Source: Cystobacter fuscus
GTDB lineage: Bacteria > Myxococcota > Myxococcia > Myxococcales > Myxococcaceae
Length of the DNA stretch: 64,000 bases
NCBI RefSeq assembly: GCF_002305875.1
Contig: NZ_CP022098.1
Coordinates: 5,270,001-5,334,000, forward strand
Direction: 5' to 3'
Position 1 is the first letter of the stretch, and every line of letters begins with the position of its first letter. Below the pieces are notes generated by a model. It saw only the letters and a list, made by a program, of their open reading frames with translations. It searched no databases and had not been told where the DNA came from. Positions 13,214-28,022 of the stretch are shown piece after piece. The position numbers were made by a program, and so were the translations under genes.

Positions 13214-13783
13214 ATGACTCGGAAGTGGTTGCTGCTGTGGGTGTCCCTCGCGTGTGGCGCGTGTGCCCGGTCCTCCCCGGCCCAGCACCCTGGCGGCGAG
13301 GCACCTCCGGGCATGGCGTTCACGTCCTCACTCGCCGTGTTGCTGGAGCACCGGGAGGAGCTGGCGTTGACGCCGTCCCAGGTGGAGCGCTTCGAGCAGC
13401 TCGACTTCACCCTGCGCGAGAAGAACGCCGTGCTCCAACACGCGCTCGAGTCCTTGCGCGTCCAGGCCAGGAAGAACAACCGGCCCTGGCATGGGGGCTA
13501 CCAGGGCGGAGGGAGCCATGACGTCCACGGTGGCAAGGGCGGCTCCATGAGTGGGCCCGCGGACGAGGACCAGCAGAAGCTGCGGCGGCGCGAGCGGTTG
13601 GAGCGCATGGAGGCCACGCTGCGCGCGATGCAGGACAATGACTCGCAAGCCTACCTCGCGGCGGAGGGGCTGATGACCGACGCGCAGAAACCCCGGGCCC
13701 GGGAGCTTTTCTCCCAGGAGCGAGAGAAGCTGCTCAAGCAGCTCGACGCCATGCATTACCAGATACGCAAGGGCGACTACTGA
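13214..13783 (+). CDS. Spy/CpxP-like periplasmic protein, probable lipoprotein
   Basis: A 189-residue exported protein. The N terminus (MTRKWLLLWVSLACGAC) is a signal peptide rich in cysteine; C14 or C17 could be lipidated, although neither is a textbook lipobox. Residues about 50-90 contain LTPSQVERFEQLDFTLREKN, the LTxxQ pattern of the Spy/CpxP/ZraP periplasmic chaperones and metal sensors, and the rest is charged helix with a glycine/histidine-rich loop (about 98-115) that could bind metal. It would act in the periplasm as a chaperone or stress sensor. It is transcribed divergently from the TPR gene. Confidence 0.6.
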   Translation: MTRKWLLLWVSLACGACARSSPAQHPGGEAPPGMAFTSSLAVLLEHREELALTPSQVERFEQLDFTLREKNAVLQHALESLRVQARKNNRPWHGGYQGGGSHDVHGGKGGSMSGPADEDQQKLRRRERLERMEATLRAMQDNDSQAYLAAEGLMTDAQKPRARELFSQEREKLLKQLDAMHYQIRKGDY

Positions 13784-13994
13784 TGAAGTCGGCAGGCGTC
13801 GGTGTTCTTCGGGAGTAACCTTCACGACATCGGTGAAGGCGGATGTCCCGAGAGCTGATCCAGACAAAATGTCGGTCTCCCCATGCCTGCTCCGGACATC
13901 CCGGCACGAGCAGGGTGTTTTCCGGCCTCCGTGGACCGAGGGCTGGGACACGGCATGTCGGTTGCTTGAGGTGTCCTGGCAGGAGGGAGCCGCC

Positions 13995-15230
13995 GTGAAA
14001 CTCGAAGCCGTCATCCGGCTCGCCCGTGAGCAGGGGGCGAGCGACATCCACCTCGAGGGTGACCTGCCCCTGGCGCTCCGGGTGCGCGGAGCACTGCGGC
14101 TCGTCGGGGATGCGATCCCGGCCGCGACGCTCCTCGCGATGGCTCGCGAGCTCATCGGCGACTCGGATTGGTCCGAGTTCCTCGCGCGCGGCTCCCATGA
14201 TGAGTCGCGCACGGTGGAGGGGCAGCGCTGCCGCATCAACCTCCTGCGCAGCGCTCGAGGCGTGGGCTTCGCCATCCGCCTGCTGTCCTCCTCCCAGGCC
14301 ACGTTGAAGAAGCTCAACCTCCATCCCGAACTGCGCCGCCTCGTCGAGTCGCCCCACGGCCTCGTCCTGGTGTGTGGTCCCACTGGCGTGGGCAAGACGT
14401 CCACGCTCGCGGCGCTGCTGCAGGAAATCAACCTCCACGAGGCCCGGCACATCATCACCGTGGAAAGCCCCATCGAGTACGCCCTGGTGCCGCGCCAGTC
14501 CTTCATCCGCCAGCGCGAGGTGGGTCGGGACACGCCGTCCTTCGCCCAGGCGCTCGTGGATGCACTCCGGGAGGATCCAGACGTCCTCATGGTCGGGGAG
14601 ATGCGCGAGCCGGAGGTGATGCGGCTGACATTGAACGCGGCGGAGACGGGGCACCTGGTGCTCGCGACGGTGCACTCCGCGAGCACCAGCGAGGCGCTCC
14701 AGCGCGTGGTGTCCGCTTTCCCCCCGGAGATCCAGGGCGCGGTGTGCAACCAGCTCGCGGACTGCCTCGTCGGTGTGGTGTGCCAGCGATTGCGCTACCG
14801 TCCGGACCTGGGCATCCGTATCCCCGAGTGCGAGGTGCTCATGGCCAGCACCCAGGTGAAGAGCCTCGTGCGTCAGGGCTTCTTCTACAAGCTGCCCTCG
14901 GCCATCGAGACGGGCGGCGCCGACGGCTCCTGGACGTTCACGCGCTATGGGGAGTGGCTGGGCCGCAAGACGGATTGGCACCTGCCTTCCGCCGCGGAGG
15001 ACGCGCCCTCCGAGCCTCCCGCCGCGCCCGTTCCGCGGCTCTCCGTGCCGCCTCCGGCCCGGCCCGAGCCCCTCCCACGGCCACCCGCGTCCAGGCCGAA
15101 GCGCGCCACGCGGGAGGCCACCCCGTCTTCCCCTCCAGCGGAGGAGGGCGTCTTCGTCATCCAGGAGGAGAAGGACCTGACGGACATCCTCCGGGAGCTC
15201 GAGCGCGGGGGCACGGGAAGCGAGGAGTAG
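13995..15230 (+). CDS. PilT-family secretion/retraction ATPase with C-terminal tail
   Basis: A 411-residue hexameric ATPase of the PilT/GspE family. The Walker A GPTGVGKT lies at residues 128-135, the aspartate box HIITVESPIEY follows, the Walker B region is DPDVLMVGEMREPEV, and the histidine box is AETGHLVLATVHSAS. N-terminal residues (AREQGASDIHLE) match PilT. PilT proteins drive type IV pilus retraction. After the core, about 75 residues form a proline-rich linker and an end helix DLTDILRELERG not found in ordinary PilT. The GTG start was chosen because AGGAGGG lies 7 bases before it, whereas an upstream ATG gives a poor N terminus. No pil gene is adjacent, so it may be an extra retraction ATPase. 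Confidence 0.85.
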   Translation: MKLEAVIRLAREQGASDIHLEGDLPLALRVRGALRLVGDAIPAATLLAMARELIGDSDWSEFLARGSHDESRTVEGQRCRINLLRSARGVGFAIRLLSSSQATLKKLNLHPELRRLVESPHGLVLVCGPTGVGKTSTLAALLQEINLHEARHIITVESPIEYALVPRQSFIRQREVGRDTPSFAQALVDALREDPDVLMVGEMREPEVMRLTLNAAETGHLVLATVHSASTSEALQRVVSAFPPEIQGAVCNQLADCLVGVVCQRLRYRPDLGIRIPECEVLMASTQVKSLVRQGFFYKLPSAIETGGADGSWTFTRYGEWLGRKTDWHLPSAAEDAPSEPPAAPVPRLSVPPPARPEPLPRPPASRPKRATREATPSSPPAEEGVFVIQEEKDLTDILRELERGGTGSEE

Positions 15231-15262
15231 ACCCGCGTGGGGGGCCTGGCTCAGGATGCCCC

Positions 15263-16499
<1,237 letters not shown>

Positions 16500-16733
16500 G
16501 CCCGCGAGGACCCGTCGAACAGGATCTGGAGATGGAGGGCATGACCGGCATCGACCTCGCGGGGGTCCAGACCGGGCGAGGGAGCGGCCTGGCGATGGAA
16601 CACGGCCCTGGGTGGGTTGCCTCGGGGTGAAGTCCGTGCGGCCCACGGTCATCCAGGGTAGGGAAGGAGCCAGGGAAGTGCGTCACCGCCTCGAGTGCTC
16701 CCTGCGGTAGGATCCCGTCTCTCCCATCCCGGC

Positions 16734-19700
16734 ATGAACATTCCAGGCTACACCCTTCGAGGGGCTTTCAGGTCCACGGGCACCAACCGGCTCTTCCACG
16801 CGGTGAGCGATGCCGATGGCACGTCCCTCATCCTCAAGACGCCCCTGTCTTCCGGGCCGGATCCGCAGGCGATCGAGCGCTACCGGCGTGAGTTCGACAT
16901 CCTCCAGAGGCTGCGCGACGTGCGCGGCGTCTCGCGGGCACTGGGCTGCGAGGTGCTCCAGGAGCGTCCGGTGCTCCTCTTCGAGGCGGTGGAGGGCGAG
17001 CCCCTGTCCGCGCTCGTCGGCCGCCCCTTCGAGCTACTCCGGGCCCTGGAGCTGGCCCTCTCCCTGGTGTCCACCCTGGCGGAGGTCCACCGCCACGGCG
17101 TCATCCACAAGGATCTCAAGCCCGCGAACATCGTCGTCACCCCGTCCGGGGACACCTGCCTCGTCGACTTCGGCGTCGCCACCTTCCAGCTCGTCGAGCA
17201 CGTGGAGGCCGCTCCCGCCACGCTCATCGAGGGCACCCTGGCGTACATGTCTCCGGAGCAGACCGGGCGCATGAACCGCGCGGTGGACCACCGCGCCGAT
17301 TTCTACTCGCTGGGCGTCACCCTCTATGAAGTGCTCACGGGCAGCCGCCCCTTCCAGGGTCGTGACGCGCTCGAGTGGTTCCATGCCCACATGGCCCAGG
17401 CGCCCCAGCCCCCGCTGGAGCGCGTGCCGGAGCTGCCTCCCGTCCTGTCCGCCATCGTCCTCAAGCTCATGGCCAAGGTCGCCGAGGAGCGCTATCAGAG
17501 CGCCGAGGGGCTCGCGGCGGACCTCGCGCGGTGCCGCGAGCAGCTCCTGCGCGGCGTGCACGAGGACTTTCCCCTGGGCGAGCACGACCACCCCTCGCAC
17601 TTCCAGCTCCCCCAGCGCCTCTACGGGCGCGGCTCCGAGGCCGCCGCCCTGCTCCAGGGTTTCGAGCGCGTGGCCCAGGGTGGGCGGCCCGAGCTGTTCC
17701 TCGTCCGGGGCTACTCCGGCATCGGCAAGTCCGCCGTGGTGCACGAGCTGCACCGGCCCGTGGTGCGCCAGCGCGGCTTCTTCCTCAGCGGCAAGTTCGA
17801 TCAGCTCCAGCGCGACATCCCCTACGTCACCCTGGCCCAGGCCATCCGCGGCCTGACGCAACAACTGCTCGCGAGCACCGACGAGGAGCTCGCGCGCTGG
17901 GGCGCGCGGCTCAACGAGGCCTGGGAGGGCCAGGGCCAGGTGCTCGTGGACGTGGTGCCCCAGCTCGAGCTCGTCGCCGGCAAGCAGCCCTCCGTCGGCG
18001 AGCTGCCCCCCGCCGAGGCCCGGCACCGCTTCCAGCTCGTCCTGCGCAAGTTCCTCGGCGTGTTCGCCACGCCCGAGCACCCCCTCGTCCTCTTCCTGGA
18101 TGACTTGCAGTGGGCGGACCTGGCCAGCCTCCAGCTGCTCCATCACCTGCTCACCCACCCGGAGACACCGCCGGTGCTGCTCATCGGCGCCTACCGGGAC
18201 AACGAGGTGGACGCCTCGCACCTGCTGGCGCAGACGGTGGACGGATTGCGCGCGGCCGGGGCGCGGATGACCGAGCTGCACCTCGAGCCGTTGACCCTCG
18301 AGGAGGTGCGGCGCTTCGTCGCGGACGCGCTGCCGGGCGCGGGGGACGAGGTGCTCGAGTCGCTGCCGGTGCTGGCGCTCGAGAAGACCGGCGGCAATCC
18401 CTTCTTCCTGCAGCAGTTCCTGCTGACGCTCCACCAGGACGGGCTCCTCGTCCGTCTGCCCAAGGGCCCGTGGCGTTGGGACGCCGCCGCCAGCCGCGCC
18501 CGGGGCTACTCCGACAACGTCGTCGACTTCATGGCCGGCAAGCTGCGCCAGCTTCCCCTGGGCACACAGCACCTGCTGCGGCTCGCGGCGTGCGTGGGCA
18601 ACTCCTTCTCCCTGGAGCTGCTTCGCCTCATCTCCCACATGGAGGAGTCCTCCGAGGTGTCTCGGGGCCTGGAGCCCGCGCTCCAGGAGGGCATGCTGAT
18701 GCGGACCGGGCCGGGCGAGCAGTTCCGCTTCCTTCACGATCGCATCCAACAGGCGGCCCAGGCCCTCATCCCCGAGCCACAGCGCAAGGCCGTGCACCTG
18801 CGCATCGGCCGCCTGCTGCTCGAGCGCCTGCCGCCCGAGACGGTCCAGGATCAGCTCTTCGACATCGTGAGCCACCTGAACGCCGGGATGGAGCTGATCG
18901 ACGAGCCGGCGGAGCGCCTGCGACTGGCGCGGCTGAACGCCAAGGCGGGACGCAACGCCAAGGCCACCACCGCGTTCCGCTCGGCCGCGACCTACCTCGC
19001 CACGGCCTACCGGTTGATTCCGGGGGATCCCTGGGAGGTGGAGCCCGCGCTGACCTTCCGGATCCAGCTCGATCGGGCCACCTGTGAGTTCATGAGCGGC
19101 AAGGCCTCCGAGGCCCGCCGCCTGGTGGAGGAGCTGCTGCCCCGGGTCCGGACGCGCACGGACACCGCGGCCGTCTACCGTCTGAAGAGCAGCATCCATG
19201 TGGCCGCCAGTGAGATCTCCGCGGCCCTCGTCTGTCTGGTGGAGTGCCTCACCCAGATGGGCATCCCCATGTCCGCGAGCCCCTCGTGGGATGAGGTCCT
19301 GGCGGCCAACGAGGAGGTCTGGGCGCTGATGGAAGGGCGGTCCATCGAGAGCCTGCTCGAGCTGCCTCGCATGACGGACCCGGACATCGAGGCGGCGATG
19401 AGCGTGCTGGGCGCCATGTTCGCGCCCGCGTACTTCACCAACACCAAACTGCTCATCGTCAACCTGTGCCGGATGGTCTGCCTGAGCATCCACCACGGGC
19501 TCAATGGTTCGGCCGCGCAGGGCTATGGCTGGTACGGCCTGGTGCTGGGCTCCATCTTCAAGCGCTACCAGGAGGGCCATGCCTTCGGACAGCTCGCCGG
19601 GGCCATCGTCGAGCGGCATGAGATCTCCACCGTTCGCGGCAAGATCCTCTACATCCAGGGCACCCTCAGCGACTGGACCGAGCCCCTCGGCAACTCCCTG

Positions 19701-22010
19701 GAGCTCATGCGCAGGGGCTTCCATCACGCGCTCCAGGCGAGTGATCTCCTGATCGCGAGCTACTGCTGCAACCACATCGTCGCGGTGCGGCTCATGCTGG
19801 GGCACCACCTGGAAGAGGTGGACCAGGAGTCGGTCATCCGTCTGGCCTTCGTGCGCAAGGCGAGCTTCCCGGACGTGCAATCCGTCGTGCATCACCTCCA
19901 GCGCTACGTGCGGCAGTTGCGCGGCGTCTCCCCGTTCGGCTCGCTGACGGGGGAGGACTTCGACGAGGCCACCTTCGAGGCCGGGCTGACGCCCGCGCGC
20001 ATGAGCACCATGCGCTGCTGGTACTGGAGCTTCAAGATGCAGGCGCGCTTCCTCGCGGGCGCCTGGGCCGAGGCGCTCGAGGCGGGCAACCGGGCCGCCG
20101 AGCTGGCCTGGGCGTCGTTCTGTCAGATCCAGGTCCTCGACTTCCACCTCTTCCATGCCCTGAGCCTGGCGGCCTGCCACGCGAAGATGACTCCGGAGCA
20201 GCGCTCGAGGGCGAAGCAGACCCTGCTCCAACACCATCAACAGCTCGCCGAGTGGGCCGCCAACCAGCCCGCGACGTTCCGGGCCCCGGAGCGGATGGTC
20301 TTCGCGGAGCTGGCCCGCATCGAGGACCGGGAGGGCGAGGCCCTGCGCGCCTATGAGGAGGCGCACGACTCCGCGCGCGCTCTCGGCTTCATCCAGCATG
20401 TCGCCCTGGCGTGCGAGCTCGCCGCCCGCTTCTGGTACGAGCGGAAGCTGAAGACGCTCGGGGACTCCTACGCGCGCCAGGCCCGGGACGCCTGGTCGCG
20501 CTGGGGCGCCCACGGCAAGGTCCAGCACCTGGAGGCCCAGTGGCCCCACCTGGCTTCCTCGCCGGCGGCCACCGAGCGCGCCGCGGAGACGGATTCCACG
20601 AAGATCGACGCGCTCACCGTGGTCAAGGCCCAGCAGGCCGTCTCGGGGGAGATCGTCCTCGAGCGCCTGGCGGCCACGTTGTTGCGAGCGGCCATCGAGA
20701 ATGCCGGAGCCCAGCGCGGCGCCCTGTTGCTGCCGCATGGCGACAAGCTCTCGGTGGTCTCCATGGTGGGCTCGTCCCCCGAGGACTCCGCCGCCGGAGC
20801 GGACGAGTCCCGGCTGCCCTGGAGCCTCATCGCGTATACCCGGCGTACCCGCGAGCACGTGCTCATCGGGGATGTCTCACATCCCCATCCCTTCTCGTCG
20901 GATCCCTGGCTCGAGCGAGGTGGGGCCCGCTCGGTGCTGTGCCTGCCCTTGTTGCGCCAGGAGGCGTTCCGCGGCGCGCTGTATCTGGAGAACGGGCTGG
21001 CCACCAATGCCTTCACGCCCTCGCGGCTGGCGCTGCTCGGGCACCTGGCCTCCCAGGCCGCCATCTCCATCGAGAACGCCCGGCTCTACGCCGAGGTCCA
21101 GCGGGCGGAGGCCGCGCTGCGCGCCGCCAATGACGAGCTGGAGAAGCGAGTGGAGGAGCGCACGCACGAGCTGAAGCAGGCCCAGGCGCGGCTGGTGGGC
21201 GCCGCGCGCGCGGTGGGCATGGCGGAGGTGGCCGCCAACGTGCTGCACAACGTGGGCAACGTGCTCACCAGCGCCGTCGTCAACCTGCAGAGCATGACCG
21301 AGACGGTGAATGTCTCGCGCATGGGCCGGCTCAAGCAGATCTCCACCTTGCTCGATGAGCACCAGGGGGACCTGGCGGACTTCCTCACCCGGGATCCGCG
21401 TGGCCTGCAACTGCCGGCCTACTTCTCCGCGCTGGGCAACGAGCTGCTGCGCGAGCAGAAAACGCTCCAGGACAGCATGGGCGCCATGAGCAAGCATTTG
21501 GATCACATCCGGGTCATCGTCCAGGTGCAGCAGTCCTACTCCCACGGCACCCTGCTCACCGAGGAGTGTGAGCTGTCCCAGCTCGTCGACGACGCGCTGA
21601 GCATCCAGTTGCCCTCGCTGCAGCACCACGGGGTTTCCGTCACCCAGGAGCTCGTCAGGCTTCCCCGGGTGAGGCTGGACAAGCACAAGGTGTTGCAGAT
21701 CCTCGTCAACCTCATCAGCAACGCCAAGAACGCCATGGACGGTCTGCCCGAGGGGCGGCGGCACCTGCGCGTGCGGCTCTGGGCCCAGGACGACCGGGCC
21801 TGCATCCAGGTGGTGGACACCGGCATGGGCTTCACGCCGGAGATTCGCGAGCGGCTCTTCTCCCAGGGCTTCACCACGCGTGAGGGAGGACACGGCCTGG
21901 GCCTGCATTCCAGCGCCCTGGCGGCGAAGCTGTTGGGGGGTCGGCTCACCCTCGAGAGCGAGGGGCCCGGCCTGGGCGCCACGGCCACCCTGGAACTGCC
22001 CCTGGGGTGA
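16734..22010 (+). CDS. Hybrid Ser/Thr kinase - ATPase - GAF - histidine kinase
   Basis: A 1,758-residue signalling protein. The N-terminal kinase domain (about 5-270) has VIHKDLKPAN with the catalytic aspartate near residue 126, DFG at about 145 and SPEQTGRMN. A PknK-like ATPase follows (Walker A YSGIGKSAV near 328-335, Walker B LFLDDLQWAD near 452), then TPR-like helices, a GAF domain (about 1295-1455), a coiled coil and a histidine kinase end (HNVGNVLTS near 1503, N box NLISNAKNAM near 1660, VVDTGMGF, GGHGLGLHSS). Similar fusions are common in myxobacteria and cyanobacteria. It probably integrates several inputs into phosphorylation output; the partner is unknown. ATG at 16734 is chosen because the kinase fold starts there. 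Confidence 0.85.
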   Translation: MNIPGYTLRGAFRSTGTNRLFHAVSDADGTSLILKTPLSSGPDPQAIERYRREFDILQRLRDVRGVSRALGCEVLQERPVLLFEAVEGEPLSALVGRPFELLRALELALSLVSTLAEVHRHGVIHKDLKPANIVVTPSGDTCLVDFGVATFQLVEHVEAAPATLIEGTLAYMSPEQTGRMNRAVDHRADFYSLGVTLYEVLTGSRPFQGRDALEWFHAHMAQAPQPPLERVPELPPVLSAIVLKLMAKVAEERYQSAEGLAADLARCREQLLRGVHEDFPLGEHDHPSHFQLPQRLYGRGSEAAALLQGFERVAQGGRPELFLVRGYSGIGKSAVVHELHRPVVRQRGFFLSGKFDQLQRDIPYVTLAQAIRGLTQQLLASTDEELARWGARLNEAWEGQGQVLVDVVPQLELVAGKQPSVGELPPAEARHRFQLVLRKFLGVFATPEHPLVLFLDDLQWADLASLQLLHHLLTHPETPPVLLIGAYRDNEVDASHLLAQTVDGLRAAGARMTELHLEPLTLEEVRRFVADALPGAGDEVLESLPVLALEKTGGNPFFLQQFLLTLHQDGLLVRLPKGPWRWDAAASRARGYSDNVVDFMAGKLRQLPLGTQHLLRLAACVGNSFSLELLRLISHMEESSEVSRGLEPALQEGMLMRTGPGEQFRFLHDRIQQAAQALIPEPQRKAVHLRIGRLLLERLPPETVQDQLFDIVSHLNAGMELIDEPAERLRLARLNAKAGRNAKATTAFRSAATYLATAYRLIPGDPWEVEPALTFRIQLDRATCEFMSGKASEARRLVEELLPRVRTRTDTAAVYRLKSSIHVAASEISAALVCLVECLTQMGIPMSASPSWDEVLAANEEVWALMEGRSIESLLELPRMTDPDIEAAMSVLGAMFAPAYFTNTKLLIVNLCRMVCLSIHHGLNGSAAQGYGWYGLVLGSIFKRYQEGHAFGQLAGAIVERHEISTVRGKILYIQGTLSDWTEPLGNSLELMRRGFHHALQASDLLIASYCCNHIVAVRLMLGHHLEEVDQESVIRLAFVRKASFPDVQSVVHHLQRYVRQLRGVSPFGSLTGEDFDEATFEAGLTPARMSTMRCWYWSFKMQARFLAGAWAEALEAGNRAAELAWASFCQIQVLDFHLFHALSLAACHAKMTPEQRSRAKQTLLQHHQQLAEWAANQPATFRAPERMVFAELARIEDREGEALRAYEEAHDSARALGFIQHVALACELAARFWYERKLKTLGDSYARQARDAWSRWGAHGKVQHLEAQWPHLASSPAATERAAETDSTKIDALTVVKAQQAVSGEIVLERLAATLLRAAIENAGAQRGALLLPHGDKLSVVSMVGSSPEDSAAGADESRLPWSLIAYTRRTREHVLIGDVSHPHPFSSDPWLERGGARSVLCLPLLRQEAFRGALYLENGLATNAFTPSRLALLGHLASQAAISIENARLYAEVQRAEAALRAANDELEKRVEERTHELKQAQARLVGAARAVGMAEVAANVLHNVGNVLTSAVVNLQSMTETVNVSRMGRLKQISTLLDEHQGDLADFLTRDPRGLQLPAYFSALGNELLREQKTLQDSMGAMSKHLDHIRVIVQVQQSYSHGTLLTEECELSQLVDDALSIQLPSLQHHGVSVTQELVRLPRVRLDKHKVLQILVNLISNAKNAMDGLPEGRRHLRVRLWAQDDRACIQVVDTGMGFTPEIRERLFSQGFTTREGGHGLGLHSSALAAKLLGGRLTLESEGPGLGATATLELPLG

Positions 22011-22033: not shown

Positions 22034-23035
22034 CTACCCGTCACCCGGGAGCGGCAGGTGGTCGCGGAAGATGGCCACGATCACCTTCCCCTTCGAAGCG
22101 GTAACGGGCGGGTGGATGTGGGCACGGTTGACATGGCCCTCAAACTTGTAGTGCCACTCGCAGTAGAGCGTCTGTCCCCCGAGTTCCCGCTCCCTGGCTC
22201 TTCGGCATACCCCGTCGGCACGGACGTTGGGTTTCTCGGGTGCAACATCGAATGCCCAGTGGATGAACCGCTGCTGGATGAGTTGGTTCGTAACCGGTCT
22301 GCGCTCCTTGTCGCCTGGGACGGGCTCTTCGGGCGAAAGCCGACCGGTCTCGTCGGTGAAGACCCATGCCCCATGGTCGTCGAGCACAGCGAGGAAATGG
22401 TGGAGGGATTGCCTGATGCGCGCATAGCCTCCTTCGAAGTGGCCGAGCTCGCTCCATACCCCCTTTAAAAACATCAGGACGGGGAATGCGTGTGGAGCGA
22501 GTGCTTCCAGCCCGGCCTCGTCCACATGCTCGACTTCCAGGGTGTCACGAAAGAAGGCGCGATGGGACGGTTCGTCCACGACGAAGTGGATTCGCTCCTT
22601 GGCTCCAGCAACGATCACCTCGCACGGACCACTCCAAGTTCCCGGTAGGGGGAGGCATGCGGTGGCCTGGCGCCTTCCCACCCGTGCGTGCACGAGCGCG
22701 GCAGAGGGTGACAGGACGTCGCTGCCTGCGATGTTCACGTCGATGGCGGGCCAGGCCATCTCTTCGTCCCAGTACTGCATCATGTTGAGATGACCAACCA
22801 CCCGCTGGCTCACCTCGAATGGAAGGTTCAATGGCGAATCCTGGTTCCACAAAAGGTCATTCAGCGTGTATGCGCCAAAGACCTGTTGCTGGAGCAGTTC
22901 TCTGCTCGCCAGGTAGGGTTCCTCCCGCTCGTAGGCGATGTCCAGCCGATCCAGGAGTTGCTCGATTCGCTCGATGTATGTCTCCCGGTTCTTTCCATCC
23001 CAAGCCCAGCTTGACTCCTCCAAGACGAAGCGCAT
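22034..23035 (-). CDS. Unrecognised third gene of a DUF262/ATPase operon
   Basis: A 333-residue protein with no signal peptide or membrane segment. I do not recognise the fold. The C-terminal half has TNQLIQQRFIHWAFD, then the cluster EWHYKFEGHVNRAHIHPP and KVIVAIFRDHLPL, where several histidines and acidic residues lie close together; they could form a metal or catalytic site. The gene starts 3 bases after the ATPase stop and is the last gene of the operon. By analogy with multi-gene defence systems it may be the effector, but this is a guess from position. Confidence 0.5.
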   Translation of the reverse strand: MRFVLEESSWAWDGKNRETYIERIEQLLDRLDIAYEREEPYLASRELLQQQVFGAYTLNDLLWNQDSPLNLPFEVSQRVVGHLNMMQYWDEEMAWPAIDVNIAGSDVLSPSAALVHARVGRRQATACLPLPGTWSGPCEVIVAGAKERIHFVVDEPSHRAFFRDTLEVEHVDEAGLEALAPHAFPVLMFLKGVWSELGHFEGGYARIRQSLHHFLAVLDDHGAWVFTDETGRLSPEEPVPGDKERRPVTNQLIQQRFIHWAFDVAPEKPNVRADGVCRRARERELGGQTLYCEWHYKFEGHVNRAHIHPPVTASKGKVIVAIFRDHLPLPGDG

Positions 23036-23038
23036 CGG

Positions 23039-24157
23039 CTACCTCGGGGGACTGCGTCGCACCCGTGCCAGTGCGGCTACATCGAGTTGGTACTGGTCGA
23101 AGAACTTGCGCGGCCAGTCACTCAAGCCACCAGCAGGCGTGAATCGGAGGGTGGAGCGCTCCGGCTGACCACCGGCCTGCATGTCGAAGAAGTGGACGAG
23201 TGCCTGGTCTGCTCCCAAGAGCTGGTGTTCTCCGATGGCGCGGCGGATGCCATTGAGTACATGGTCGCTGTGCGTCTCCACCAGCACCTGGACTCCGTCT
23301 CTCGCCAGGGTAGCCAGGAAGGTGCCCATGCGGGACTGGCCCGCTGGGTGCAGGTGGGCCTCGGGGTTCTCGACGATCAACAACCCGCCCGCAGGTGTGA
23401 ACAGCCCGGCCAGTACAATGGGAAGGCTGTAGCTCACGCCGAAGCCCATGTTGGGCGCGCGCACCCAATCGCCGCCTGGAGTGCGAAAGCGCAGTGCGGT
23501 GACAGAAGTGTTGGGGAACCAGTCTGTGTTGATTTCAGTAGGGCGGGCGATGTCAGACAGCCAGGCCTCGACCTGGTACTTGAGGAAGGCATCGACGTCT
23601 CCATGCCGCTCGGGGTGCATCCGGCCTGGCGAGACCTTTTCCTTCAATCCATGGAGGGCCAGCACCTGGGCACAGAATTCGCCCCGGACGCCGACACTCA
23701 AATCGTCTGCGGGCCTGGCGCTGGCGCCCAGGACATCCCGCGGGCCGAGTCGTTCGGCGCAGAGGTAGGTGAATGCCCGGTGGGGGCCGCCCAAGGCTTG
23801 AGGCACCTGTTTTGGGGGATCTTTGATGGGCAGGTGGAGAAGTGTCTCGTCGCGTGCATCCAGAAGGAAGCGGACCTCCGTCCCGTCATCCATGAGCATG
23901 GAGAGCACGATTTCCGAGGTATCGACAGCCGTGTGGAGGTTGAGCACGTCCTGTGCGCTGCCCAACTCCAGGCCGAAGGGCCCATTGAGTGGCACGGTGC
24001 GCGCTCCAGGGGTGCTGGCCTCTCGGGCCAGGAGCAGGGCCTGGATGACCGTGGTTTTTCCTGCCCCGTTCAATCCGGTGAGGACCGTGAGGGGAGCCAG
24101 GTCAAGCGAGCAGGAGGCAAATCGCTTGAACCCGGTGATCTGGAGTGTCGTGATCAT
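23039..24157 (-). CDS. DUF3696-type AAA/ABC-like ATPase
   Basis: A 372-residue ATPase of the RecF/SMC-like overlapping group. Walker A is GLNGAGKTT (residues 28-36), with the leading ITGFKRF typical of the head domain. The signature-like and Walker B region is GGLLIVENPEAHLHP, where asparagine follows the glutamate, and HSDHVLNGIRRAI is the switch/H-loop region. The C-terminal end RKFFDQYQLDVAALA is that of DUF3696 proteins. It lies between a DUF262 gene and an unknown gene with a four-base overlap and a 3-base gap. It probably senses or gates nuclease activity on foreign nucleic acid. Confidence 0.8.
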   Translation of the reverse strand: MITTLQITGFKRFASCSLDLAPLTVLTGLNGAGKTTVIQALLLAREASTPGARTVPLNGPFGLELGSAQDVLNLHTAVDTSEIVLSMLMDDGTEVRFLLDARDETLLHLPIKDPPKQVPQALGGPHRAFTYLCAERLGPRDVLGASARPADDLSVGVRGEFCAQVLALHGLKEKVSPGRMHPERHGDVDAFLKYQVEAWLSDIARPTEINTDWFPNTSVTALRFRTPGGDWVRAPNMGFGVSYSLPIVLAGLFTPAGGLLIVENPEAHLHPAGQSRMGTFLATLARDGVQVLVETHSDHVLNGIRRAIGEHQLLGADQALVHFFDMQAGGQPERSTLRFTPAGGLSDWPRKFFDQYQLDVAALARVRRSPPR

Positions 24158-25323
24158 CCGGCGGCCTTCTTGAGGATATCGCGTGCCACCTGGAAGCGGA
24201 GCTTGACCTTGGAGATGTCGCCAGTCCCCTGGCTGACCGCAGCATTGTAGTCGTAGTCCCCCATCCGCTTGCGCGCGGCCTTGATGATGGCTTCCTGGTT
24301 CGGCTTGAGCTGTTCGGGCTCGTAATCGGCCAGCGCGACCGCCCAGCTCTCGAACAGGGCTCGGTTGATGGGGCCGCGTCGGGTTGCCCCGAGGCGGTAC
24401 TTGCGGAATGCGGTGTTGCCAAACACCGCATTCGCGGTACGCATCGCACGATCGAAGTCCGCGGAGAGCTGGGTGATGGCATCCTCGGAAAGGTTCTGTC
24501 CAGAGGGATGGACACCGTCCACCCGGCGAGTGAAATCGAGCAGGAAGGAGTCCAGGCTGTTGAACTCGCGGTAGTCGTTCAGGTTCAGCAGGGAGCGGAA
24601 GGCGCAGAACCGGAGGACTACCTCCCGATCAGCCATGCGCCGCTCATGGCTGAATGCCTCATCCGTCGCCTTGTGGAAGGAGGGCAGGGCTGTCAGCGCC
24701 TTGAGCAAGTCGCGTGAGCGCTTCCGGCTCATGCAATGCCGGATTTCCTGGGCGGTGAGCGGACTGCCTCCTGTGTTGATTCGCCGGAAGACATCGAACT
24801 TGACGTCATCAGGCGTCTGCGGCTCGATGACGTTGACGAAGATTTGCGTTTGATGAAAGCGCCGTCGCAGGACCACATCGAGGTCGTTGAAGGTCTGCCC
24901 CTCCAGGTGCTTGAGGTACTCGAGATCCGAGAGGGCTTCTCCACCGGTGGCGAAGCGGTTGATGGTGGTGAGGCGCTGCACGCCATCGACCACCTGCATC
25001 GCTCCTTGAAAGTCTTGGTTGAAGTAGAACGCAGGTAGCGGGATGCCCAAGAGCACGGACTCGATCAGCCGCGACCTTTGGGCCGGCTTCCAGACGTAGA
25101 GGCGCTGGAAGTCTGGCGCCAGGTCGATGTCGCCGTCCTTGATCATGTCCGCCACCTGACGGAGGGAGAAGGGTTTCGTGCTGATCCGGATCCTGGAAGG
25201 ATCCCACGGCTTTGTCTCCGATGGCCTCTCCCCGACGTCCTCCACCTCGACATCCGTGGCGTCGTTCTCGAAGAACTCCTGCTTGGGCTCCTCAGGGTTC
25301 TCCTGCGGCTTCTCATCGGCCAT
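24154..25323 (-). CDS. DUF262-domain (GmrS-like) protein
   Basis: A 389-residue protein with the DUF262 fold of the ParB/Srx-like superfamily. Key marks are DFQRLYVWKPAQRSRLIES (about 71-89), the DGVQR motif (113-117) and FRRINTGGSPLT (about 179-190). DUF262 is the NTP-sensing/hydrolysing half of GmrSD, BrxU and similar anti-phage proteins; here no nuclease (DUF1524) domain is fused. It opens an operon whose next gene overlaps its stop by four bases. It begins with an acidic, disordered segment (residues 1-40). Confidence 0.8.
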   Translation of the reverse strand: MADEKPQENPEEPKQEFFENDATDVEVEDVGERPSETKPWDPSRIRISTKPFSLRQVADMIKDGDIDLAPDFQRLYVWKPAQRSRLIESVLLGIPLPAFYFNQDFQGAMQVVDGVQRLTTINRFATGGEALSDLEYLKHLEGQTFNDLDVVLRRRFHQTQIFVNVIEPQTPDDVKFDVFRRINTGGSPLTAQEIRHCMSRKRSRDLLKALTALPSFHKATDEAFSHERRMADREVVLRFCAFRSLLNLNDYREFNSLDSFLLDFTRRVDGVHPSGQNLSEDAITQLSADFDRAMRTANAVFGNTAFRKYRLGATRRGPINRALFESWAVALADYEPEQLKPNQEAIIKAARKRMGDYDYNAAVSQGTGDISKVKLRFQVARDILKKAAG

Positions 25324-25503: not shown

Positions 25504-27324
25504 TCAGCCCTCCTCGTGGATGAGCCAGATGTTGCGCGTGGCGACGTCGGGCCGCTTGGACAGATCCACGATGCGCTGACCCGGGGCGAAGGGTCGGTTG
25601 AAGGGGTAGCCCCACTCGCCCGAGGTCTCCGTCTCCTGGGCCTCGCCGGTGACGGTCACCTGGAAGCGGAAGAGCATGCCCTCGCGCCTGCCCCGGGGCA
25701 GCAGCAGGTGCGCGGGCCAGCCTCGCTCCCGCACCACGGACGCCAGGCGGGACGGACGGAAGATGACCGCGCGCTCCGAGGGCCGCAGCGTATGGACGAA
25801 GCCATCCATCTCCATCCACATCCGACGCTCGTCCACGAAGGGCTCGGCCACCAGGTGGATGCGCACCGTCACCCGCTGCTCGCGCGGCAGCAGGTTCTCC
25901 ATCCGCAGGAAGTAGGAGAAGGGCTCGTGCTCCAGCCGCGGCTTGAGCACCTCCGAGCCATCCGGCAGCCGCAACGGGCGCTGCGCCAGGTGGGTGTGCA
26001 GCACGTGCGTGGTCATCGGGAAGGAGGGGGGCCTCCCGTCCCAGTGCTCGCCGCCGAACTGCTCCTCGCCCCAGCGCTGCCCGTCGAAGTCCGGCGAGCC
26101 CAGCCCGGGCACGTCCTTGTCCAGACACAGCAGCAGGTCCGGGCTCTGGTGCATGGGCGCCGGACCCTCGGTCATCCACGCGCGCATCCGCACCGGGGTC
26201 TGCTCGGACAGGTCGTGCGGAGCCTCGTGCGTGCTCCGCCAGGTGTCGAGGATGTCGTCCACGTGGCGGTGCCAGCGGTAGAAGAGCGGATCCCTCGCCG
26301 CCGTGGCCGGAGCGGCCAGGACGCCGGGCAGGCCACTCTTGTCCCTCGGCGAGCGCAGACAGGCCAGGAGGAGCTGTCCCATGTGGTGGTACGAGCCATG
26401 GGGACCGAGCGGGTCACGCCAGGCCTCGCCATCGAGGGACGCGGGCGTGGACTCGACCGTATGGGCGAGCTGCTCCACGCTGTCGATGTCGATGGGCGTG
26501 TCCCCATGCCACATCAGTCCCGAGGAGGCCGCGGCGCAGAGCCGATCCCTCCGGGTGGCATGATCCTCGACGCCATAGCCGGGCACTCCCTGGAGGCTCA
26601 GCCCGGGAGGGCGGGGCGCGAAGCCGGGCAGGCGGGAGTCATAGGCCTCGTTGAGGGGCGCCGTGAAGTCCTGCAGGGGCGCCGTGCGGGGCATGCCGAA
26701 CGACAGGCGCTCCGTGTCGTAACGGGCGAGCAACTGCTGGTGCGTGTGCCAGAACGCCTCCGCGTGCCGCTCGGGGAGCACGCGCCGGGAGGGTTGCGTG
26801 GGGTCCGGATGGCCGGCGGCCGGGTACCGCATCCGCCAGGTCTCCACGGCCTCGTTGAGTCCGGCGTCCTCGCGGAAGTAGTCCAACCACACCTCCGCGC
26901 CCGGGACGCCCGGCGAGCCCTTGCGGGGCGGCATCGTCCTGCGCGAGGGCAGCACGAGGTGGGGGGCGCGCTCGTGCAGCGGGGGCACGGTGAGCTCGCG
27001 GCCCTCGGGGTGGTGGGCGAGGAAGAGGCGCAGCGCGTACCGCACCCACTCGGGGTCTCCCCGCCGCGCGCCCTCGTTCGCCGCGTCCAGCACCGCCGCG
27101 AGTCCCGCCTCGCCGGGCCGGGCATTGGCCAGCGCCATGAAGTGGGCGGCCGTGGACAGCGCCTGCTCCAGGTGCGCGGGCAGCGAGGGCAGGAAGCGAT
27201 GCTCGGGAGAGGGCGGCGCGAAGAGCGACAGGCCTCCCTCGGGTGTCCGGGGGAGCGCGTGGGCCTCCGGCTCCCGGCTCGACAGCAACTCCCTCAGCCG
27301 GGTGTTCAGCTCCTCGCGGCTCAC
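25504..27324 (-). CDS. Hemocyanin/hexamerin-like protein (type-3 copper fold, ligands partly lost)
   Basis: A 606-residue protein that reads like an arthropod hemocyanin or phenoloxidase over three regions: a helical N-terminal domain; the copper domain with YFREDAGLN (149-157), [15 protein letters not shown] (194-208) and [13 protein letters not shown] (345-357); and an Ig-like C-terminal domain with [14 protein letters not shown] (464-477), MDGFVHTL and WGYPFNRP (571-578). Compared from memory with the consensus, only H195, H313 and H352 of six copper histidines remain; V160, R164 and Q317 stand at the other three places. It may therefore be copper-free, like hexamerins. No signal peptide is visible. 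It begins with GTG overlapping the YebC stop (GTGA). Confidence 0.75.
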
Positions 27325-28022
27325 TTGAGACCGACGTAGATGTTCTGCACGTCGTCGTCCTCGTCCATGGCCTCCAGGAACGACTCGACCTCGGCGCGCT
27401 GCTCGCCCTCCAGGTGCACCGGATTCTTGGCGATCCAGGCGAGGTTCTGCGCGCTCACCGTCCAGCCCAGGCCCGTGAGGGCGCGGCTCACCGCGTCCAG
27501 ATCCGTGGGCGCGGTGAGAAAGCGCGTGGCGCCCTCGTCTCCGGGCTCCAGCTCCTGCGCGCCCGCCTCGATGGCGGCCGCCTCGGCGTCGGCGCCTCCT
27601 TCCGGAGGCGCGGCCTCGATGACGCCCAGCCGGTTGAAGTCCCACGACACCGCGCCCGTGGTGGCGATCTGCCCCTTGCGGAAGAGCACCCGGATGTTGG
27701 TGGCGGTGCGGTTCTTGTTGTCGGTGAGGCACTCGACGATCACCGGCACCTGGTGGGGCGCGAAGCCCTCGTAGGTGACGAGCTCGTAGTTCACCGGCTC
27801 GTCCAACAGGCCCGCGCCCTTCTTGATGGCGCGATCCAGCGTGTCGCGCGGCATCGAGGCCTTCTTGGCCTGCTCGACGGCCAGACGCAGCCGGGGATTG
27901 GAGCCCACCTCGGGCCCACCGGCCTTCGCGGCGATGATGAGTTCCTTGACCAGCTTGGTGAACAGCCGGCCCTTCGCGGCCGCGTGCTCCGTGCGGCCCT
28001 TGTGCTTCCACTGAGCGCCCAT
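27321..28022 (-). CDS. YebC/PmpR family protein
   Basis: A 233-residue cytoplasmic protein of the YebC/TACO1 family, with the N-terminal MGAQWKHKG, the [28 protein letters not shown] block and [14 protein letters not shown]. Members act as transcription regulators and as factors that help ribosomes pass polyproline stretches. This one carries an acidic insertion (about 140-165) and ends [13 protein letters not shown]. Its stop overlaps the GTG start of a hemocyanin-like gene, so the two are made together. Confidence 0.9.

Follow-up and report, generated by a model that had tools for sequence, protein, structure and literature searches.

The window, the whole 64,000-nucleotide stretch of the Cystobacter fuscus genome (one contig of 12,349,744 bases) analyzed here, carries on its minus strand a hemocyanin/prophenoloxidase (PPO)-family gene with an incomplete copper center, assigned by Pfam, Protein Data Bank (PDB), and fold matches. 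The open reading frame (ORF) at positions 25504 to 27324 begins with GTG, ends with TGA, and encodes 606 amino acids without an internal stop. Directly upstream on the same strand lies yebC (27321 to 28022; Pfam Transcrip_reg, 1.6e-44; TACO1_YebC_N, 2e-22; NF009044, 250 bits). The two genes share 4 bases (GTGA), where the hemocyanin start runs into the yebC stop, an overlap which suggests that they are translationally coupled. The nearest neighbors of the hemocyanin gene are ppk, yebC, and an Nsn system; the three Nsn genes, 180 bases downstream at 22034 to 25323 (minus strand), match PADLOC NsnC (3.4e-82), NsnB (8.2e-97), and NsnA (1.2e-120). This is an anti-phage system, known as Menshen, and nothing relevant to the Nsn names appeared among the literature matches listed. 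Farther along, a 1,771-residue ORF on the plus strand (16695 to 22010) has the look of a fusion between a serine/threonine kinase and a sensor histidine kinase.

Within the 606-residue protein, residues 144 to 358 match the Pfam profile Hemocyanin_M (1.8e-26; 93.4 bits against a cut-off of 20.8), and Hemocyanin_C is matched at 1.9e-11 (44.2 bits against 26.4). Both exceed the curated cut-offs, which places the protein in the arthropod hemocyanin/PPO superfamily. The Pfam Tyrosinase profile gives a weak match (3.1e-5) confined to the CuB half, the last third of that domain, and no match was found in NCBIfam, PADLOC, or PHROGs. Hemocyanin_N has no Pfam match at E ≤ 1. The predicted N-terminal helical domain (approximately residues 1 to 125; 26950 to 27324, minus strand) aligns instead with the N domain of L025, a bacterial relative described below, which in turn aligns to Limulus hemocyanin from residue 44 and also to PPO. 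Against the PDB, phmmer returned scorpion hemocyanin (3ixv, 5.2e-40), Limulus hemocyanin (5.5e-33), Anopheles PPO (4.1e-31), and the fungal enzyme AsqI (1.2e-19), with arylphorin (3gwj, 2.4e-7) as the best hexamerin. The first-pass annotation, made from the sequence alone, had proposed likeness to arthropod hemocyanin over three domains in a gene coupled to YebC; its coordinates are correct, and the strand, which it did not give, is minus. Membership in the family holds on the strength of the middle-domain and scorpion hemocyanin matches, as does the place behind yebC, whose identity is established by Pfam and NCBIfam; the three-domain likeness stands for the middle and C-terminal domains and, for the N-terminal domain, is supported indirectly, through L025 and the fold alignment.

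Structure prediction agrees with this placement. The AlphaFold2 model, built on a six-row alignment, is weak (pLDDT 65.6, pTM 0.73), and residues 291 to 343, which hold CuB1 and CuB2, fall below pLDDT 50; with the CuB region the very part that is poorly modeled, the pocket geometry is predicted only. When this weak model was searched with Foldseek, the first 46 rows were hemocyanins, PPOs, AsqI, and hexamerins (1oxy, 4.6e-26). VIA-align placed 23 superfamily entries at Z scores of 17.5 to 25.2 over 455 to 482 residues (PPO6, 25.2; Limulus, 24.7; AsqI, 22.8), in an alignment spanning residues 2 to 606 of the weak model, and the next row scored 6.7. A second model, of the L025 protein, is also weak (pLDDT 60.5). 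The overall hemocyanin fold can nevertheless be predicted safely, chiefly from sequence.

Distribution and the yebC neighborhood

Among 195 Myxococcota genomes, PF00372 was found in 11 (9 of the 149 of good quality; 3 of 90 genera), all of one family and including Archangium lansinium, A. violaceum, and an Archangium metagenome-assembled genome (MAG); it was found in none of 14 control genomes. The hemocyanin gene lies directly behind yebC in 10 of the 11, with the GTGA overlap in eight and an ATG 22 bases past the stop in two. The exception, G139, has yebC and the hemocyanin gene on different contigs. A YebC search matched 55 of the 58 genomes of the window's family, and at 10 of 30 loci around the best YebC matches (the window's included) the hemocyanin gene follows yebC; the other 20, G139 included, contain no trace of it by tblastn over approximately 1.5 kb on each side. 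Genes downstream of the hemocyanin gene vary among the myxobacterial genomes, and the Nsn genes have no matching called ORF in the other 10 loci (stretches of approximately 20 kb with rough ORF calls; only 2.7 kb downstream in L016). Because the genes downstream of it in the window match a separate Nsn system and have no counterpart among those calls, a functional unit of the hemocyanin gene with its downstream genes was rejected.

Other phyla were covered by one pattern scan. Run on genome contigs with the alignment of the family, it found members outside Myxococcota in a Pyrinomonadaceae MAG (41%) and a gp7 Acidobacteria MAG (34%), the latter carrying a second copy. Among 396 sampled genomes of Acidobacteriota, only this same gp7 genome has a family member. 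Two of 72,556 plasmid records contain one, both from Rhizobium indicum (29 to 30%); the gene is annotated "tyrosinase family protein" on one plasmid and as hypothetical pieces on the second (L031:4001-5667). No relative was found in 50,697 phage records at E 1e-3, and of 34 stretches of viral contigs that matched the pattern, none was confirmed as a relative. The question of bacterial spread, raised in the first-pass annotation, is answered in part: such proteins are rare in Myxococcota, in Acidobacteriota (the one sampled genome and one more), and on plasmids.

Copper ligands and six-histidine bacterial relatives

Ligand positions were called from an alignment with solved hemocyanins and four six-histidine bacterial relatives. 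In the Cystobacter protein they are occupied by V160, R164, and H195 (CuA) and by H313, Q317, and H352 (CuB), so that three of the six histidines of a functional hemocyanin or phenoloxidase are present. On the minus strand of the window, the former CuA1-CuA2 stretch from V160 to R164, both histidine in the four six-histidine relatives, lies at 26833 to 26847, the kept CuA3 residue H195 at 26740 to 26742, CuB1 H313 and the CuB2 position Q317 at 26374 to 26388, and the kept CuB3 residue H352 at 26269 to 26271. The first-pass annotation had named exactly these replaced and retained residues, and the alignment did not restore six histidines.

A further difference lies in the N-terminal domain, where S47 corresponds to Limulus F49, which we take to be the place-holder residue; the position was located by alignment to Limulus residues 44 to 49 through L025 and through stand-alone N-domain proteins, and it is phenylalanine in all four six-histidine bacterial relatives. 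Passages of a 2013 survey place a phenylalanine here in the beta-subclass of type-3 copper proteins and describe, as conserved across type-3 proteins, a phenylalanine four residues before each third ligand and an aspartate four after the last (PMC3658974). The Cystobacter protein keeps these as F191, F348, and D356. Since its three histidines are divided between the two sites and the place-holder phenylalanine is absent, a coupled dicopper center is not expected, and the protein is thus very probably redox-dead, carrying no O2 and oxidizing no phenols. Two near full-length tyrosinase domains are encoded elsewhere in the genome (G000:C1:6770926-6771534 and 11002077-11002856; 141.9 and 129 bits), so phenol oxidation need not depend on the hemocyanin gene.

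The complete ligand set is found in all four distinct non-myxobacterial relatives, three acidobacterial and one plasmid-borne in Rhizobium. For the Rhizobium protein, the match to Limulus hemocyanin reaches 4.8e-67 and covers the middle and C-terminal domains; the Pyrinomonadaceae protein matches scorpion hemocyanin at 1.2e-78. Animal contamination is unlikely, since two of the genes have bacterial-type neighbors on contigs measuring 469 and 177 kb and one is part of a complete plasmid; the contig that carries the L025 gene, next to one of MacB/FtsX type, measures only 4.3 kb. Among the literature matches listed, judged by title and abstract opening and drawn from a collection with few subscription papers, none described a bacterial hemocyanin of the beta type. 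The 2013 survey found only alpha-subclass proteins in the bacterial and archaeal genomes examined and traced the beta-subclass, which comprises arthropod hemocyanin and phenoloxidase, to an origin along the unikont stem (PMC3658974). That picture changes now that beta-type proteins with six histidines are seen on long contigs of bacteria and on a complete plasmid: either the beta-subclass predates eukaryotes or it crossed between domains.

Graded ligand loss under selection

A survey of ligand positions across the myxobacterial proteins, suggested in the first-pass annotation, revealed a graded loss. CuA1 is histidine in none of the 11 members (V, I, L, or Y instead), CuA2 in 3, and CuA3 in 8, whereas CuB1 and CuB3 are histidine in all 11 and CuB2 in 6 (Q in four, E in one). 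CuB is therefore complete in 6 of 11 members and reads H-Q-H or H-E-H in the other five; the four members from the window's genus lack the second CuB histidine in addition to the first CuA one. Five ligand histidines are left in L002 to L004, four in L006, three in the window's protein and five others, and two in L011. The place-holder phenylalanine is present in 6 of 11, with S, S, S, and A in the window's genus. Across 221 middle-domain columns, 22 vary at least as much as position 160, 7 as much as 164, and 63 as much as 195. H313 and H352 are invariant in the 11 members, but so are 105 of these 221 columns, and their invariance is accordingly weak evidence for a kept site. Over the whole alignment, 242 of 568 ungapped columns are invariant.

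A trivial explanation for the missing ligands could be that the gene is a relic or pseudogene. This was rejected, because all 11 myxobacterial reading frames are free of stops and dN/dS (Nei-Gojobori) is 0.15 to 0.30 in five close pairs: 0.20, 0.21, and 0.15 for the three pairs formed by the window's gene and its two nearest relatives, L007 and L008, and 0.27 and 0.30 in two others. In four wider pairs it is 0.34 to 0.52. For yebC, the same pairs in the same order gave 0.30, 0.37, and 0.45, then 0.14 and 0.11, and 0.08 to 0.19 in the wider four. Selection maintains the hemocyanin gene, though less tightly than yebC in six of nine pairs, and its higher values in the wider pairs leave room for part of the protein to be drifting. 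The C. fuscus protein is a complete, selectively maintained type-3 copper-fold protein of the beta-subclass.

To place it among its relatives, a tree was built from 508 columns and 18 rows, with three arthropod rows as the sole non-bacterial members; the rooting is an assumption, and in 6 of the 18 rows the residue composition departs from that of the alignment. The myxobacterial proteins group together in one clade (100/100), with the Pyrinomonadaceae protein as its neighbor (99/98), and branch among the acidobacterial rows; a single clade of the three acidobacterial rows is rejected (p-AU 0.0098). Two forks within the myxobacterial clade are unsettled. On this tree, CuA1 requires a minimum of one change and CuB2 a minimum of two. 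Since the closest relatives beyond the clade are proteins of other bacteria with six histidines, the copper ligands were lost inside bacteria, and the Cystobacter protein represents the branch of a bacterial hemocyanin/phenoloxidase family that is losing copper. An ancestral bacterial protein of the copper type probably lost first CuA and then part of CuB under purifying selection. In the simplest reading, one six-histidine gene entered the Cystobacter/Archangium lineage from Acidobacteriota, or was shared with them, and copper was lost afterward. We hold this account of the protein's anatomy and history with high confidence.

Candidate functions and known systems

The fold seems to have found a use after copper. 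We propose that the protein is a cytosolic, non-oxidative pseudo-phenoloxidase that is made together with YebC and retains the inter-helix pocket as a putative binding site. Cosynthesis would follow from its position behind yebC, and a cytosolic location is suggested by the lack of an obvious signal sequence, judged by eye. At the old CuB site it may hold a single Lewis-acid metal or no metal at all, with metal assistance in those members where CuB is whole, and the pocket may bind a small ligand or act on it non-oxidatively, as the fungal proteins AsqI and PngL do. Several considerations favor this reading: a dicopper center is not expected, two other tyrosinase domains are encoded in the genome, and AsqI and PngL/PenL, in the passages of PMC6053404 that describe them, offer a precedent. 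No substrate, partner, or pathway is visible, and the downstream genes differ among genomes; taken whole, we give this explanation a probability of about one-half. Its most specific element, AsqI/PngL-like handling of a ligand, is drawn by analogy and is more tentative, since the Cystobacter protein has no complete tri-histidine site.

A second reading, which we consider unlikely, dispenses with the pocket: the protein would be a pseudoenzyme that serves as a protein-binding scaffold or regulator, for example with YebC in translation or transcription. Its place directly behind yebC in 10 of 11 genomes, overlapping in eight, fits such a role, as does the marked variation of former CuA positions 160 and 164 in an alignment where so many columns are invariant. 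A partnership with YebC is harder to reconcile with the 20 of 30 YebC loci that have no hemocyanin trace nearby and with the separate contigs of G139.

It is also conceivable, but improbable, that one copper or zinc is still bound at H313/Q317/H352, or that H195 is used, and that the protein performs mononuclear redox chemistry. Three histidines do sit in canonical places, CuB is complete in 6 of 11 members, and H-Q-H and H-E-H ligand sets can bind metals. On the other hand, CuB2 changed at least twice on the tree and three members lack CuA3, so that H313 and H352 are the only ligands common to all 11.

The neighbors of the six-histidine genes raise a different possibility. In the gp7 genome, each of the two genes is directly followed by an N-domain-like and a caspase-like protein (L033:7281-8772 and L032:10985-12524). 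The small proteins, of 108 and 115 residues, match no Pfam family above cut-off; their likeness is to the N-terminal domain of hemocyanin, with matches of 4e-14 to 6e-8 to the L025 protein. The caspase-like proteins match PF00656 at 2.8e-10 and 2.7e-5 and are 39% identical to each other. TIR-domain and CHAT-domain proteins lie near the second acidobacterial copy (L032:6193-7251 and 13696-16635). A third N-domain-like small protein follows the Pyrinomonadaceae gene at the contig end; in the Cystobacter genome, where 150 of 238 initial candidates for a stand-alone N-domain protein were scored, nothing other than the hemocyanin gene came up. On the R. indicum conjugative plasmid, a subtilase (PF00082, 1.2e-27), an MBL protein, and the six-histidine gene stand in a row (L030:4267-9767) near genes annotated as kinase, phosphatase, and SduA-domain protein. 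The best PADLOC matches of the MBL protein are LmuA, RTasMBL, and Avs1a, and passages of PMC12799240 describe MBL-type pro-nucleases activated by trypsin-like proteases as well as caspase-nuclease loci. Relatives of the subtilase occur in 24 plasmid records; on the three other rhizobial plasmids examined among these, the subtilase-MBL pair has no annotated hemocyanin gene beside it, so the pair does not need that gene. Small hydrophobic KCPxC proteins lie directly upstream of two acidobacterial six-histidine genes (L025:1484-1906 and L033:10667-11008); one falls just short of the MerC cut-off (27.5 against 27.6 bits), the other matches no Pfam family, and they could possibly serve in metal supply.

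A protease gene near three of the four six-histidine relatives hints, at the level of gene order, at protease-gated phenoloxidase systems in bacteria. These might constitute a beta-subclass phenoloxidase branch of bacteria's own, acting as protease-gated effectors, with the myxobacterial protein as a disarmed, domesticated offshoot; we regard this as rather unlikely, although if true it would be the bacterial counterpart of the arthropod PPO cascade. The narrower proposal that the Cystobacter protein is a former conflict-system effector, captured, disarmed, and kept for immunity or regulation, draws on the caspase-like and subtilase-MBL neighbors of its relatives and on the Nsn defense system downstream. 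It is quite improbable, as the myxobacterial genes were found with none of their relatives' partners next to them and the Nsn genes found no match among the rough ORF calls of the other 10 loci. A storage role in the bacterium, truly analogous in function to that of insect hexamerins, is very improbable: copper ligands are lost in hexamerins too and myxobacteria form spores under starvation, but the gene sits behind yebC, occurs in so few Myxococcota, and encodes a protein whose composition, given below, falls short of either hexamerin class.

We return to the preferred pseudo-phenoloxidase reading and to its nearest known counterparts. The first-pass annotation had expected either a copper-free hexamerin or a fold put to new use, and the second alternative is the one that survives. 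Hexamerin descent is contradicted by the phmmer scores (hemocyanin 5.2e-40, arylphorin 2.4e-7), by the tree with its six-histidine bacterial relatives, and by composition: the protein contains 7.8% FYW and 2.6% Met, below both the aromatic-rich (>15%) and methionine-rich (4 to 11%) hexamerin classes as delimited in the relevant text of PMC2861669. Insect hexamerins belong to the same superfamily and have likewise lost copper ligands, but the loss was independent, a convergence between proteins far apart in sequence. PF00264 tyrosinases are members of the superfamily as well, although the Cystobacter protein matches only the last third of their domain.

With arthropod hemocyanin and PPO (PF00372 plus PF03723), the protein shares the whole-length fold (by the weak model), the middle and C-terminal domains, and F191, F348, and D356; it differs in being bacterial and in the replacement of the CuA1, CuA2, and CuB2 histidines and the place-holder phenylalanine. 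The C-terminal cysteine-bearing segments of the acidobacterial six-histidine proteins L025 and L026 are missing from it. An animal-type protein family, to which the blue oxygen carriers of crabs and spiders belong, thus also exists in bacteria, where it seems to have been repurposed. The Cystobacter/Archangium clade is a natural copper-loss series, with five, four, three, and two histidines left under continuing selection, in which the post-copper role of the hemocyanin fold could be tested in bacteria.

This copper loss parallels that of the hexamerins and of AsqI, the zinc cyclopenase of Aspergillus nidulans (5yy2). According to passages of PMC6053404, AsqI is a hemocyanin-like enzyme with zinc at site A and site B replaced, whereas in PngL/PenL it is site B, not site A, that is preserved. 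Like these fungal proteins, which use the fold non-oxidatively, the Cystobacter protein combines a hemocyanin-like fold with a partly kept dicopper center. Unlike them, it has neither site whole, and whereas AsqI sits in a fungal alkaloid cluster, the Cystobacter gene sits behind yebC.
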